DNA of 35,256 nucleotides from Marinobacterium jannaschii DSM 6295 (GTDB lineage: Bacteria > Pseudomonadota > Gammaproteobacteria > Pseudomonadales > Balneatricaceae), in contig NZ_JHVJ01000035.1 of assembly GCF_000620085.1 (NCBI RefSeq), positions 1 to 35,256 of the forward strand. Reading direction: 5' to 3'. Below are positions 4,351 to 25,486 of the stretch, one piece after another; position 1 is the first letter of the stretch, and each line of letters begins with the position of its first letter. The notes beneath the pieces were generated by a model that saw nothing but the letters and a program-made list of their open reading frames with translations, searched no databases and was not told where the DNA came from. A program made the translations under genes and the position numbers.

Positions 4351-5913
4351 TTAGTCGCTACACACCTGATTACGGCCATTTTCCTTGGCCTGATATAGCA
4401 GAGCATCTGCCCGACTGAACAGCGCATCCACGTTATCCCCCTCTTTGGCTTCGGTAACACCAAACGACATGGTGACGGTGACCGGCTTGCCATGAAAGTT
4501 AAACGGACTGGATTCCACCGCCGCCCGGAGTTTCTCCAATGCGGTAGCGGCTTCTTTACGTGCTGTGGAAGGCATTATGATAACAAACTCTTCGCCGCCA
4601 TAGCGGGCAACGAAATCAGTACTGCGCAGGCTGCGGGTCAATACGCGGGCAATGAGGCGCAATACCTTATCGCCCGCCAGATGGCCATAAGTGTCATTAA
4701 TTCGCTTGAAGAAGTCGAGGTCACAGACGGCAACAGATAGCGGCGCCCGGTAGCGGGCCCAGCGTTCACTCTCGGAGAAGATCTGATCATCATAGGCCGC
4801 CCGGTTGGGCAGCCCGGTCAGCGGATCGGTGCGCGCCTTCATCCGCTCCTCTTCCATGTGCGCCTTAACCTGCCGGGTCTCCTGCTCCATCTGTTCAACC
4901 TTACCCATCAGGCCTTCATAACGCTCCTGCATGCGGCTTTCGCGAGCCTCTTCAGAGCGTTTGAAGTTGTCCATCGCCCGCATAATGCCGACCAGTTGGC
5001 GGGTCACATTCTGCTTGAGTTCGGTAATCTCATTGGTGGTTTTCACCGCCTCGTTGAGCGCGCGCACATCCTTGCGCACCTGGCTATCTAACAGGCGCTG
5101 GCTCTGGCCGACGGCCGCCTGCTCTTTCTGGCTGTCCGACAGGAAGCTTTGCACACCGGTCAGCTGTTCGCTCAGGTTTATCAGGTAGCGTTCGAAGTCT
5201 TCACTGGCATTGTTGTTGGCCTTGCCGACCAGCGTAACCAGCTCGCGCATCAGGTCGGGAAGATCAGCCAGTTCAAAGCCCTTCTCAACCTCCTGCACCA
5301 GCTTCCGGGCCAGCGGTTTCTCTTCCTGCGGGACATAAAGGCAGGCGATAAGCTCCAGCAGCTCACTGGCGATATTCTGCAACAGCATGCGGGTATCACC
5401 ATCAACCGGGGAAGGCCTTCCCGGCTGAAGGTCAAAGTCACTGACCTGATCCTGACTGATACGCAGTCCTGACTGGCATTCGGCCAACCGGGCGATCAGG
5501 TCAGGCAATTCATAGAGGCTGTCGACGGCCGACTGGCTGCTCTGGCTGAGTTCATTCAGATCACTCAGGCTGGACTGCTGGGTCGCGATCGCTTTCATAT
5601 CCGCGATCCACTTCTGCAGACTGATCAGCAGACGCTTGGCATTGTCCTCACGGCGCGAATCCCGACTACGAATCAGGCTTCCGAGACGCTGCGTGACCGG
5701 CTTAAGCTCACGGGCACCGCCATCAACCAGGGTTTGCTTAAGCACCCGCAGTTCATTATCAAGATCGGCATCATCCCCCTGCAGGGCAATGGTCATTCCG
5801 GATACGAGCTGTTTAAGGCTCTCAATGGTCAGCTCCGCGGCTTTGGCATTGCCTTCGGTTTCCAGCGCCAGCTCACGGTATTTCTTTTTCCAGTCGTCTT
5901 GCTCCGATGCCAC
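4351..5913 (-). CDS. Diguanylate cyclase with coiled-coil N-terminus (DgcP-like)
   Basis: The protein makes c-di-GMP from two GTP. Residues about 350-520 form a GGDEF domain with the active-site GGEEF at 439-443, the metal-binding DLDFFKRINDTYGH segment, and an inhibitory I-site RSTD exactly five residues before GGEEF. The first 350 residues are hydrophilic, helical and without a membrane segment, ending in a coiled coil rich in Glu, Arg and Gln. In Pseudomonas aeruginosa the cyclase DgcP lies beside dsbA and cytochrome c4, as this gene does; DgcP is longer (about 670 residues), so orthology is likely but not certain. The start is GTG, supported by AGGAAG five bases upstream. It lies about 50 bp before ubiB on the same strand. 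Confidence 0.88.
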   Translation of the reverse strand: MASEQDDWKKKYRELALETEGNAKAAELTIESLKQLVSGMTIALQGDDADLDNELRVLKQTLVDGGARELKPVTQRLGSLIRSRDSRREDNAKRLLISLQKWIADMKAIATQQSSLSDLNELSQSSQSAVDSLYELPDLIARLAECQSGLRISQDQVSDFDLQPGRPSPVDGDTRMLLQNIASELLELIACLYVPQEEKPLARKLVQEVEKGFELADLPDLMRELVTLVGKANNNASEDFERYLINLSEQLTGVQSFLSDSQKEQAAVGQSQRLLDSQVRKDVRALNEAVKTTNEITELKQNVTRQLVGIMRAMDNFKRSEEARESRMQERYEGLMGKVEQMEQETRQVKAHMEEERMKARTDPLTGLPNRAAYDDQIFSESERWARYRAPLSVAVCDLDFFKRINDTYGHLAGDKVLRLIARVLTRSLRSTDFVARYGGEEFVIIMPSTARKEAATALEKLRAAVESSPFNFHGKPVTVTMSFGVTEAKEGDNVDALFSRADALLYQAKENGRNQVCSD

Positions 5914-16324: not shown

Positions 16325-16359
16325 CTTGTCACATTTTTGTCATCAGGCGCTTTTATAGT
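16325..16359 (+). promoter_or_regulatory. PhoB-dependent promoter of pstS (Pho box and -10)
   Basis: Two direct repeats, CTTGTCA (16325-16331) and TTTGTCA (16336-16342), start 11 bp apart, the canonical spacing of a Pho box. A -10 element TATAGT (16354-16359) follows 11 bp later, so the box occupies the position of a -35, as in PhoB-activated promoters. The coding start of pstS is 54 bp downstream of the -10. PhoB is encoded in the same window. Confidence 0.88.
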
Positions 16360-22481: not shown

Positions 22482-23210
22482 GTGCAGTTTGAAGACAATT
22501 ATTCATCACATATTTCCCAGCAGTTTAATGACGAACTGGAACAGATTCGTACCCAGCTGCTGACCATGGGTGGCATCGTCGAGCGTCAGGTGCATGACGC
22601 CGTGGAATCCCTGCTCACCGGTGATACCGAACTGGCAGAGCAGAGTCGTCGTGTCGATAAGCAGACCAATGATATGGAACTGATGATCGACGAACAGTGC
22701 ACCATGATCATCGCCCGCCGCCAGCCAGCGGCCAGCGACCTCCGCCTGATTATCTCGGTCTCCAAGGCCGTCAGCGACCTGGAACGGATGGGCGATGAAG
22801 CCAGCCGAATCTGCCGTCATGCCATCGAGCTGGCAGATGCCGGTGACTCCCAGCGCGGCTATCAGGAAGTACGTCATATAGGTAACCTGGTACGCGCGAT
22901 GGTGAAGGATGTATTGACCGCCTTCGCCCGTAACGATACCGAACTGGCGTATCGTGTTGCCAAGAAGGACAAAGAGGTCGATCAGGAATACCGCTCCGCC
23001 ATGCGCTCGCTGGTGACCTACATGATGGAAGACCCACGTGCCATCTCCAGCGTCCTCAATGTGACCTGGGTGTTGCGTAGCCTGGAGCGTATCGGCGACC
23101 ACGCCCGCAATATGGCCGAGCACCTGATCTACCTGGTCAGCGGCACCGATGTACGCCACAGCAGCCTGAAACAGATTAAACAGGCCGTTCAGGCAGATAG
23201 TGACAGCTGA
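22482..23210 (+). CDS. phoU: Phosphate signalling regulator PhoU
   Basis: PhoU links the Pst transporter to the PhoR kinase and keeps the Pho response off when phosphate is plentiful. The 242-residue protein is two three-helix PhoU domains, each with the metal-binding pattern: DKQTNDMELMIDE in the first and KKDKEVDQEYRSAM in the second, plus the paired ISVSKAVSDLERMGDEA and NVTWVLRSLERIGDHARN helices. The start is GTG, supported by GGAG about 10 nt upstream and by the family N-terminus. It is the last gene of the operon, before a strong terminator. Confidence 0.97.
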   Translation: MQFEDNYSSHISQQFNDELEQIRTQLLTMGGIVERQVHDAVESLLTGDTELAEQSRRVDKQTNDMELMIDEQCTMIIARRQPAASDLRLIISVSKAVSDLERMGDEASRICRHAIELADAGDSQRGYQEVRHIGNLVRAMVKDVLTAFARNDTELAYRVAKKDKEVDQEYRSAMRSLVTYMMEDPRAISSVLNVTWVLRSLERIGDHARNMAEHLIYLVSGTDVRHSSLKQIKQAVQADSDS

Positions 23211-23240
23211 TTAAAGCCACACACTCAGCAATTCACCAAA

Positions 23241-23267
23241 GGGCAGCCCGACCGGCTGCCCTTTTTT
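23241..23267 (+). terminator. Rho-independent terminator of the pst-phoU operon
   Basis: The 8-bp stem GGGCAGCC/GGCTGCCC (23241-23248 with 23254-23261) has loop CGACC and is followed by TTTTTT (23262-23267). It lies 30 bp past the phoU stop. Confidence 0.93.
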
Positions 23268-23390
23268 ATTGCCGCTACGCCAATACTCGCAAAAGTAATC
23301 CGGCATTTGGCCGATAGTCTAAGCTTGTACAGATACATTAGCCTATCGGGTCGCTTGCAGTCGCCCAACGCTATCCACACCGGTATTACT

Positions 23391-24902
23391 ATGGATAAAT
23401 ACATTGTCTACGGAGATCTCAACTGCCCATTCTGCTATGCCCTGCAGGAACAACTGGCGAAATGTGATCTGCTGAATCAGGTAGACTGGCGGCTGATCGA
23501 GCACGCCCCCGACATCGGCGTTTACGGCCGTAACGCCGAGAGTCAGGCCGAGCTGGCCGGTGAGGTATTCATCGTTCGCAGCCGGGCCCCCCAGGTACAA
23601 CTGGCACTGCCCCCGATCCGCAGCGACAGCCGCTTCGCTATCCTCTGCATCATTGCCGCGATGGAGCTGGACGACGCCAAAGCCCGGCAACTGCGCCATA
23701 ACCTCTATCGCTCACTCTGGATTGAAGGCCTGGATATCGCCAATACCGCGGTGATTTATGACTGTATAACCGACGCCGGGCTGCCGGGCGAACTCAACAT
23801 TGAGGAACGCCATGAAGAGATGCTCGCACACTGGCAATCAGAGTGGGAGCATGGCGATTTCGCCCTGAGGATTCCGGTAGTGGCGGCACCCGACGGCCGG
23901 CGTATGCTGGGACTGGCGCCGCCAGAACAGCTGCTATCATTCTTTGGCGGGGCCGAAGTCGAAGCCAGCCCGGAAAGCATGGACAGCTGTCGCCATATCG
24001 ACCGCCAGACCATCTGCCTGCTGACCGGCCGTGATACCGACAAGGTCTGGCCACTGATCGCGGCCCTGCGGGATGACTTCAATATACTGCTGCCCGCCTC
24101 GGCAATGGAGCTTAAGCAGTTGCTAAACGGCAGCGAAGCCCCGGACCTGGTGTTGCTGGATAGCAGCGAACAGTGGCAGACGACACTTGAGCTGTGCCAC
24201 GATCTGAGCCAGCAGCAGCTGGATCACAACACGCCGCTGGCGCTGGTGGGTGAAGATATCAGCGAAAGCCAGGAAGTGGCCGTCTATGATGCCGGTGCAG
24301 CTGACTACTTCACCACCCATCGAGCCCCGGCGGTACTGCGCGCCCGGGTAAGAACCCTGCTGCAGCTGAAACGCTCGCATGACCTGCTGGAGCGCGCTGC
24401 GCGGATCGATGGCCTGACCCAGGTCTATAACCGCCGCGAGTTCGAACGCACCCTGGAAGTCGAATGGCGACGAGGTCAGCGCTCAAAGCGCAGCCTGTCG
24501 CTGATCCTGCTCGATATTGACCACTTTAAACAATACAACGACCATTATGGCCACCTGACCGGAGATGGCTGTCTGAGAACCGTTGCCCAGACGATTAAGT
24601 CATCTGTCCGCCGGGTGCAGGATATGGCCTGCCGTTATGGCGGCGAAGAGTTTGCGGTGATTCTGCCGGAAACCGATATCTATGGCGCCTCGCAGCTGGG
24701 GGAGAAGATCCGCCGCCAGATCGCGGAGCTGCAGATAAAGCACGACGGCCTGAAGCCGGGGGCCACGCTCACCATCAGTATCGGCATCGCCTGCATGAAC
24801 CCGGCAGACGTTGACAGCCCTCACCTGCTGATCGAAGCCGCCGACCAGGCGATGTACCAGGCCAAGGCCGATGGCCGTAACCGGGTGGTCAGTGCCGACT
24901 GA
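23391..24902 (+). CDS. DsbA-like thioredoxin fold / receiver-like / GGDEF fusion protein
   Basis: The 503-residue protein has three parts. Residues 1-190 resemble a DsbA/FrnE-type thioredoxin fold, with CPFC at 12-15 right after strand IVYGDLN, a helical insert, and the cis-Pro loop RIPVV (Pro162). Residues 205-325 look like a receiver: Asp257 sits in the phosphoacceptor position, but the N-terminal acidic pair and the conserved Lys (TTH instead of TK) are missing. Residues 335-503 are a GGDEF domain with DIDHFKQYNDHYGH, GGEEF (417-421) and I-site RVQD (408-411), so it should make c-di-GMP. There is no signal peptide, so it is cytoplasmic. The ATG at 23391 begins the thioredoxin strand; an upstream TTG is unlikely. 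It follows the phoU terminator and shows no Pho box. Confidence 0.85.
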   Translation: MDKYIVYGDLNCPFCYALQEQLAKCDLLNQVDWRLIEHAPDIGVYGRNAESQAELAGEVFIVRSRAPQVQLALPPIRSDSRFAILCIIAAMELDDAKARQLRHNLYRSLWIEGLDIANTAVIYDCITDAGLPGELNIEERHEEMLAHWQSEWEHGDFALRIPVVAAPDGRRMLGLAPPEQLLSFFGGAEVEASPESMDSCRHIDRQTICLLTGRDTDKVWPLIAALRDDFNILLPASAMELKQLLNGSEAPDLVLLDSSEQWQTTLELCHDLSQQQLDHNTPLALVGEDISESQEVAVYDAGAADYFTTHRAPAVLRARVRTLLQLKRSHDLLERAARIDGLTQVYNRREFERTLEVEWRRGQRSKRSLSLILLDIDHFKQYNDHYGHLTGDGCLRTVAQTIKSSVRRVQDMACRYGGEEFAVILPETDIYGASQLGEKIRRQIAELQIKHDGLKPGATLTISIGIACMNPADVDSPHLLIEAADQAMYQAKADGRNRVVSAD

Positions 24903-24922
24903 GCCGGCCTGACAGACGTGGG

Positions 24923-25486
24923 CTAGCAGTAGTCGGCGAACGGCGGAAACAGTTCGATCAGCCCATCGCGCCCCAGTGAACGCATCAGTTCCATATTGCG
25001 CTCTGGAATCGCATCCGGATCCGGATAGTTCATCAGTACCCGGCTCATCTGGCCTTCGCGGATAATATGGAAGCAGGGAAACGGCATCCGGTTGGTCCAG
25101 TGACTGAGGTCATCGGCCGGAACACCGCCGAACAGGTAGGCCGGATGAAAGCTGGCCAGCTGAAAGGTCCCCGCCAGGCCAGACTGCTTCAGCAGGTCTT
25201 CCAGCAGCGCCAGCATATCGAGATAGTCGTAGAAGTCAGCCAGCGCATAGGGCGTGATAAAGAGCGTGGTAGCGATCTCGTCTTCGCCACTCTGGTGGAT
25301 CAGTTCCAGTTCCTGCAGAAAACCTTCGGCGATCTGCTGCGGCTCAGTCTCGGCGCAGACGGCATAACGCAAGGTGGCATTTTTAACCACCGGCGCCGCA
25401 AAGGGACAAAGGTTCTGGCCTACCACCAGGGTTTCCACCCAGCGGCGGCACAGGGCCTCAACTTCATCAATCGAATACTGCTTCAA
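24923..25486 (-). CDS. DUF1415 family protein
   Basis: The family has no established function. The 187-residue protein matches it through WVETLVVGQNLCPFA (near residues 16-30), the LASFHPAYLFGG segment, and NRMPFPCFHIIREGQMSR. The conserved Cys-Pro-Phe and His residues suggest a binding or catalytic site, but that is inference. It is soluble and cytoplasmic by appearance. It converges with the GGDEF fusion (20 bp between stops, no clear terminator) and diverges from ubiC (133 bp). Confidence 0.85.
   Translation of the reverse strand: MKQYSIDEVEALCRRWVETLVVGQNLCPFAAPVVKNATLRYAVCAETEPQQIAEGFLQELELIHQSGEDEIATTLFITPYALADFYDYLDMLALLEDLLKQSGLAGTFQLASFHPAYLFGGVPADDLSHWTNRMPFPCFHIIREGQMSRVLMNYPDPDAIPERNMELMRSLGRDGLIELFPPFADYC

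Follow-up and report, generated by a model that had tools for sequence, protein, structure and literature searches.

A gene on the forward strand of the window, by which we mean the whole 35,256-nt stretch of DNA that was analysed, raises the question of what a DsbA-like domain might do at the front of a diguanylate cyclase. Translation of positions 23391-24902 (+) gives 503 codons and a stop. An automatic ORF list opened the same frame at a more 5′ TTG; the start Met of the 503-aa protein aligns with most homologues, many of which open M..Y.VYADLNCPF or M..Y.VYGDLNCPF. The Pfam search that a preliminary description of this locus had proposed as a check placed a DSBA domain (PF01323) at residues 6-131 (E 1.4e-6; 28.6 bits, over the 25.6-bit cut-off) and a GGDEF domain (PF00990) at residues 338-498 (E 6.8e-55), with a Response_reg match between them at residues 228-320 that stayed under its cut-off (18.1 against 30.2 bits). 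The features of the gene and of the gap before it are as follows:

23238-23264, + strand: terminator-like hairpin and T run between phoU and the 503-aa gene (hairpin search)
23391-24902, + strand: gene of the 503-aa DsbA-like, pseudo-receiver and GGDEF protein, stop included (translation, Pfam, start alignment)
23391-23960, + strand: predicted DsbA-superfamily thioredoxin fold with helical insert, approximately residues 1-190 (PF01323, AlphaFold2, Foldseek)
23424-23435, + strand: CPFC, residues 12-15 (sequence, homologue alignment)
23646-23648, + strand: Cys86 (alignment and tree rows)
23874-23876, + strand: Pro162, in the model the presumed cis-Pro opposite the active Cys (alignment; precedes strand 163-165)
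24009-24365, + strand: pseudo-receiver, approximately residues 207-325 (secondary structure of the model, residue counts, Pfam match under cut-off)
24159-24161, + strand: Asp257 (residue counts)
24402-24884, + strand: GGDEF domain (PF00990)
24612-24623, + strand: RVQD I-site, residues 408-411 (motif counts)
24639-24653, + strand: GGEEF active-site motif, residues 417-421 (motif counts)

The motifs that the preliminary description had picked out were recovered: CPFC lies at residues 12-15 within the DSBA match, Pro162 is present at the proposed cis-Pro loop and in all 67 aligned homologues, and GGEEF and RVQD were located in the cyclase. The description had also proposed that there is no signal peptide, and no hydrophobic signal stretch was seen by eye at the N-terminus (MDKYIVYGDLNCPF). 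Judged by the lack of an export signal, the protein thus does not appear to be of the periplasmic DsbA type, and it looks soluble and cytoplasmic.

A survey of the spread of the fusion, likewise suggested earlier, revealed a real family. Residues 1-211 matched 45 of the 116 genomes of the host family, in 6 of 16 genera, and fusions alike in domain order and close in length were found in at least six families and at least three orders, the host family included. With a domain profile, matches came from at least 44 of 390 genomes of the host order, the majority weak and outside any fusion; among those scored, ten were strong, six in the host family and four in families f2, f46 and f29. A draw from the class gave matches in at least 37 of 369 genomes, and fusions besides the host's own were found in f103 and f200, both of orders other than the host's. 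The order of genome G543 contains only f103 (8 genomes, one with a match) and that of G845 only f200 (41 genomes, 23 with a match); at the 12 f200-group places that were fetched, of 27, GGDEF lay in the same frame in 11. Among the candidates scored in a phylum draw of 398 genomes there was no strong match outside the class, the best (53.4 bits) lying in a frame without GGDEF. The order, class and phylum counts are lower bounds, part of the candidates having been scored (7 of 20 in the host genome, for example). Relatives were not found in a search of plasmid records. Because 45 of 116 family genomes match and because Cys12, Pro162 and the I-site are fixed down to approximately 30% identity, the sequences confirm that the domain fusion is real and not due to chance.

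Second fusion copies occur in genus g2 (L053-L055, L057 and L059); they have CPFC, are without Cys86 and show no phoU in the fetched flank. Two fusion copies are split between frames (G017:C1:4865262-4865884 and G750:C25:7648-8272, the latter L094), which may reflect decay or sequencing error. L105 (G726) holds a 491-aa frame with a DsbA-like CPFC domain and without GGDEF, at a locus that also has a phoU relative (49% identity), which may be chance or a second association with phoU. In the host genome the 503-aa query gave 70 matches, nearly all through the GGDEF part.

For residue counts we used a set of 50 family sequences from 53 places, with G056 and two frame-split pieces of G017 left out. 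The 67 homologues are this set plus a net 17, drawn from six further fusions and 12 of the 27 f200-group places; loci repeating the same gene (L004, L012, L032, L037 and L039) were dropped. L056, which has a shorter frame, is in the set of 50 and was left out of the 67, of the tree and of row set A2, which is also without L025; row set A1 holds 31 of the 50.

Structure prediction, the other check proposed for the N-terminal part, yielded a thioredoxin fold, so that the preliminary description came through one of the two tests it had named as able to refute it. AlphaFold2 with 48 full-length family members as input gave a mean pLDDT of 86 and a pTM of 0.48, so that the single domains are well modelled and their mutual packing is not; residues 1-211 alone reached pLDDT 87 and pTM 0.85. 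In the latter model, a strand (4-8) is followed by the active-site helix (13-24), a second strand (31-35), a helical insert (approximately 49-153), strands 163-165 and 171-173 and then a helix. Foldseek against the PDB returned kappa GST as the best match (E 8e-8, TM 0.65, rmsd 5.2), followed in order of E-value by 2in3, YjbH with Spx, FrnE, HCCA isomerase and DsbM; one FrnE entry (5xwh) was crystallised with GSH, as was one DsbM entry (5hfi, E 7.6e-5). Among entries described as periplasmic, 4gxz came highest (4.4e-4), and S. aureus DsbA stood at 1.3e-3. The first 18 matches had TM-scores of 0.53-0.68, rmsd mostly of 4-6 Å and identities of 12-17%; such moderate TM-scores alone do not separate glutathione-linked from other matches, and the ranking is one of E-values, the TM-scores of the leading matches being close to one another. 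A sequence-profile search favoured none of GST kappa, FrnE and S. aureus DsbA, all three being weak matches (best E 0.014). Because the best structural matches are mostly cytosolic and often glutathione-linked, the model points to the cytosolic, glutathione-linked part of the DsbA superfamily.

Kappa GST, FrnE, DsbM and HCCA isomerase have the thioredoxin fold with helical insert in common with the input domain; they differ in being only approximately 12-17% identical to it and in not forming the N-terminus of a signalling protein, and the input domain has residues of its own (N11, H38 and W110). Kappa GST and HCCA isomerase carry Ser at the active position, where all 67 homologues have Cys. 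Many but not all members of the FrnE subfamily have a second, C-terminal CXXXXC, according to excerpts of PMC8945050; residues 1-211 have cysteines at 12, 15, 25, 86, 125, 200 and 209 and contain no CXXXXC. The fold is common to enzymes, and the N-terminal domain might be a working thiol oxidoreductase or transferase merely tethered to a constitutive cyclase. We consider this very improbable, since the domain is fused in at least six families in the same order and at similar length, with a pseudo-receiver in between, and since the second Cys of the motif is missing from 26 of the 67 homologues.

The segment that would connect this domain to the cyclase resembles a receiver. In the AlphaFold2 model, residues 207-325 show the receiver-type succession of strands and helices, and helix 313-338 continues to the GGDEF domain. 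The preliminary description had called the receiver degenerate, with Asp257 kept and the acidic pair and Lys lost. With positions assigned from the strand ends of the model, this holds for the 503-aa protein, which has T212-G213-R214 at the place of the acidic pair, T308 at that of the Lys and a retained Asp257, but neither trait is general among the homologues. Position 257 is Asp in 11 of the 67, His in 22, Asn in 17, Ser in 10, Thr in 4 and Cys in 1; Asp or Glu stands at 213 in 26 and at 214 in 23, which makes the missing acidic pair a trait of the 503-aa protein and not of every homologue. Because only 11 of 67 have Asp257, ordinary phosphorylation is unlikely as a shared input; with Asp257 present, phosphorylation-like control may operate in the 503-aa protein, and likewise in single other members. 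Its Asp257 also sets the protein apart from the aspartate-less receivers (ALRs), and this residue is absent from 56 of the 67 homologues. The frequent His and Asn at this position look like uneven drift and may carry lineage-specific function.

The cyclase motifs are intact. D375, D377, K380, N383, D392, R408, D411 and GGEEF are present in 50 of 50 family sequences; in the 66 homologue rows that reach this part, the same single residues and G417, G418, E420 and F421 are invariant, with position 419 occupied by Glu in 65 rows and by Asp in one. With GG[DE]EF, metal and I-site residues all in place, the protein is predicted to be an active diguanylate cyclase. PleD (REC-REC-GGDEF) uses its second receiver as a dimerisation adaptor. 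The NCBIfam PleD model aligns its positions 168-455 of 457 to residues 219-502, which indicates a PleD-like layout whose first receiver has given way to a different domain; the score (195.9 bits) lies under the equivalog cut-off of 474. The 503-aa protein thus has the C-terminal half in common with PleD, and the DsbA-like domain stands where PleD has its first receiver.

One reading of the CXXC in the input domain is that an intramolecular Cys12-Cys15 disulphide gates the cyclase, which is the main thiol-based rival to the reading that we prefer. CXXC is present in the 503-aa protein and in 41 of the 67 homologues. In the remaining 26, position 15 is Ser, with the domain, the cyclase motifs and Pro162 all retained; a Cys12-Cys15 pair as an obligatory switch is thus not the mechanism of the family. 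Cys12, by comparison, is present in 67 of 67, even in a homologue only approximately 30% identical to the 503-aa protein. Among the 50 family sequences, which divide into 26 with Ser15 and 24 with Cys15, Cys12, Asn11, Pro13 and Pro162 are invariant; across the 67, Asn11, Pro74, Trp110, Trp152 and Pro162 are each fixed, and Pro13 is found in 66.

A quick tree of 55 rows, with long branches and with a chosen outgroup that does not form one side of any branch, grouped 41 rows in one clade (SH-aLRT 100), here called the phoU-locus clade. All Ser15 forms lie within it and require at least two changes of state on the tree, and Cys15 is found in 14 of 14 tree rows outside it and in 12 of 12 fetched f200 rows. 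Because Cys15 is kept in all rows outside the clade, it is probably ancestral. This speaks for the CXXC switch; weighed against the 26 Ser15 homologues, we nevertheless hold the Cys12-Cys15 switch to be unlikely. Cys86 is present in 41 of 41 clade rows, the Ser15 ones included, in none of the 14 other tree rows and in none of the 12 f200 rows added later; Cys15 was thus probably lost, in one event or two, after the clade had acquired Cys86. It is therefore possible, from these patterns, that Cys86 takes the place of Cys15 as the partner of Cys12.

The loss of Cys15 is also compatible with a domain that works outside redox chemistry. In this main other rival, the DsbA-like domain would serve to bind a partner protein or a small molecule, with Cys12 structural or incidental. 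The analogy is to DsbA-like YjbH, which binds Spx and whose structure with Spx ranks high in the Foldseek list. Residues that are peculiar to the subfamily also speak for this rival: in 34 other DsbA-like profile rows, position 11 is Ile or Val in 26, position 38 Ile or Leu in 28 and position 110 Phe in 29, so that Asn11, His38 and Trp110 mark the fusion subfamily, a stand-alone relative among the 34 having all three. The retention of Cys12 in every homologue, down to approximately 30% identity, argues against an incidental cysteine, and we rate such a module as rather doubtful.

We regard it as an evenly balanced proposition that the cyclase is instead governed by a single reactive cysteine in a DsbA fold of the glutathione branch, acting via the pseudo-receiver on dimer geometry. 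The invariant Cys12, opposite Pro162, would take a thiol adduct; a mixed disulphide, formed with glutathione or else with a partner protein, is the likeliest form. The adduct would alter the packing of the input domain on the pseudo-receiver and thereby the dimer geometry that pairs two GGEEF sites, which in turn would set cyclase output; the degenerate receiver would serve to couple the input domain to the cyclase and is unlikely to take up phosphate in the usual way. Sequence and models carry the case as far as the domains, the fold, the intact cyclase motifs, gene order and an unvarying Cys12; from there we infer cyclase activity, thiol chemistry, glutathione as the ligand and the direction of control. 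Glutathione is a candidate ligand because of the Foldseek neighbours and, less firmly, because the host genome has a match to the glutathione-synthetase domain PF02955 (E 5.8e-78, 261.8 bits); this domain, the only enzyme of glutathione synthesis covered, also matches in 9 of 14 control genomes. Cys12 could alternatively be retained for structure, metal binding or persulphide chemistry. The preliminary description had proposed that redox state, glutathione adducts or another ligand sensed by the N-terminal domain control c-di-GMP output. That proposal stands as a reasonable inference, given a DsbA-superfamily fold with no export signal, a degenerate receiver and intact GGDEF motifs; the idea of the CXXC as a working pair is weakened by Ser15 in 26 of 67 homologues.

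The gene order at the locus is a pstS-like gene, pstC, pstA, pstB, phoU, the 503-aa gene, a DUF1415 gene on the opposite strand, ubiC, ubiA, phoB and phoR. The pstS-like gene, pstB, phoU, DUF1415, ubiC, ubiA and the two-component pair were assigned by Pfam or NCBIfam, and pstC and pstA by position alone. Because all 37 testable members of the phoU-locus clade, this one included, have phoU upstream and on the same strand (the other four of the 41 begin at contig ends), co-regulation with the phosphate genes was considered. It was set back by the terminator-like hairpin after phoU, by the lack of a Pho-box-like site and by the fact that phoU was not in the fetched flank of the fusions examined outside the clade. 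The gap between phoU and the fusion is 180 bases here and 112-1085 in 36 relatives, 27 of which have a hairpin in it by a loose, unshuffled screen (a T run preceded by a fold of < -10 kcal/mol, at any place in the gap). These hairpins argue against simple co-transcription with pst-phoU and suggest a separate transcript for the 503-aa gene. Against this, 9 of the 36 relatives fail the screen and no sigma-70-like promoter was found in 23100-25000 (0.8 expected). Terminator-like sites in the same interval number three, with 1.3 expected by shuffling. An ATG-started frame of at least 60 aa, which may be a small gene, is present in the gap of 13 of the 36 relatives.

The preliminary description had noted that the gene adjoins the phosphate regulon and has no Pho box, and this was borne out: phoU is directly upstream, and 23211-23390 contains no match with three or fewer mismatches to the consensus. 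Over the whole window, seven Pho-box-like matches were counted where chance predicts 5.4, and any one of them therefore carries little weight. The PstS-like gene has one such site upstream, at 16326-16343 (+), which departs from the consensus at three positions. Elsewhere in the window, at 4351-5913 (-), is a second gene for a diguanylate cyclase, this one with a DGCcoil domain (PF20975).

The preliminary description knew of no characterised protein with this domain order. In our literature searches this held for function, but a DsbA-bearing Cys-type receiver was noted in 2015, so that the architecture is partly in print already. According to excerpts of PMC4395418, Neptuniibacter caesariensis (Oceanospirillales) has a DsbA module on a Cys-type pseudo-receiver without the phospho-Asp, one of 26 Cys-ALRs, next to an operon that includes a glutathione S-transferase gene, and redox sensing at the receiver Cys was raised as a general idea; those excerpts make no mention of a GGDEF or cyclase output for that protein, of a family or of a fixed Cys12. 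Unlike this Cys-ALR, the 503-aa protein retains Asp257. L135/L020 is the sole homologue of the 67 with Cys at 257 and has an adjoining GST gene, and it may be the Cys-ALR of PMC4395418 or a close relative. At L135:7598-8780 (genus g11), GST and PNPOx-like (pyridoxamine-oxidase-like) genes lie beside the fusion where the 503-aa gene has DUF1415; the excerpts of PMC4395418 name a predicted NADPH ferredoxin gene beside the GST, whereas the second gene of L135 scores as PNPOx-like.

In searches on the fusion architecture and on the relatives DsbM and FrnE, we recognised no functional study among the matches listed, which were mostly from non-subscription literature. In the accessible parts of PMC8846402, redox inputs to c-di-GMP are periplasmic cysteines, haem, hemerythrin and flavin. 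The redox-sensing proteins named there, PdeC, HmsC/HmsD, AxDGC2 and CdgF, likewise feed redox state into c-di-GMP turnover, but through periplasmic cysteine domains or flavin PAS domains; those parts describe no thioredoxin-fold input, and the word 'thioredoxin' is absent from the main text as accessed. Portions of PMC7084401 report a Leptospirillum thiol oxidoreductase gene that adjoins a cyclase gene, as separate genes and not as a fusion, and portions of PMC1262709 report a different fusion, a DSBA-like domain on a mycobacterial protein kinase. The fusion architecture is not described in the sections available of PMC10101095, PMC12943098, PMC8945050, PMC10974088, PMC1978522, PMC13304067 and PMC13269488.

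The closest stand-alone relative of the input domain, at L137:3768-4409 (29% identity over 198 columns), offers a further view of what the domain might do. Within L137:3768-7152 its gene overlaps with the 5′ end of the gene for a PAS-hybrid histidine kinase; after the kinase comes a receiver-HD_5 protein, whose translation contains HDIGK and GKGYP (HD and GYP motifs). The kinase and the HD-GYP-type neighbour link the domain subfamily to c-di-GMP signalling a second time, which we count in favour of the preferred reading; this arrangement is that of one genome, five other genomes of the same order giving no match to the input domain. We tentatively suggest, as a possibility somewhat short of probable, that a DsbA fold of the glutathione branch became a one-cysteine receptor of thiol state governing the synthesis of a second messenger, whose partner Cys was lost or moved in one clade (where Cys86 is present and Cys15 is free to be Ser), and that the subfamily was linked to c-di-GMP twice, once fused and once free.

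The natural split between Cys15 and Ser15 provides a built-in comparison of one- and two-cysteine versions of the protein. If the proposed mechanism is true, a thioredoxin-fold input in the cytoplasm would make the change between motile and attached life directly dependent on thiol or glutathione state, and the fusion family could connect thiol state with the choice between swimming and settling. If a one-cysteine receptor with two links to c-di-GMP is borne out as well, the subfamily would represent a general means of coupling thiol state to c-di-GMP in the cytoplasm.
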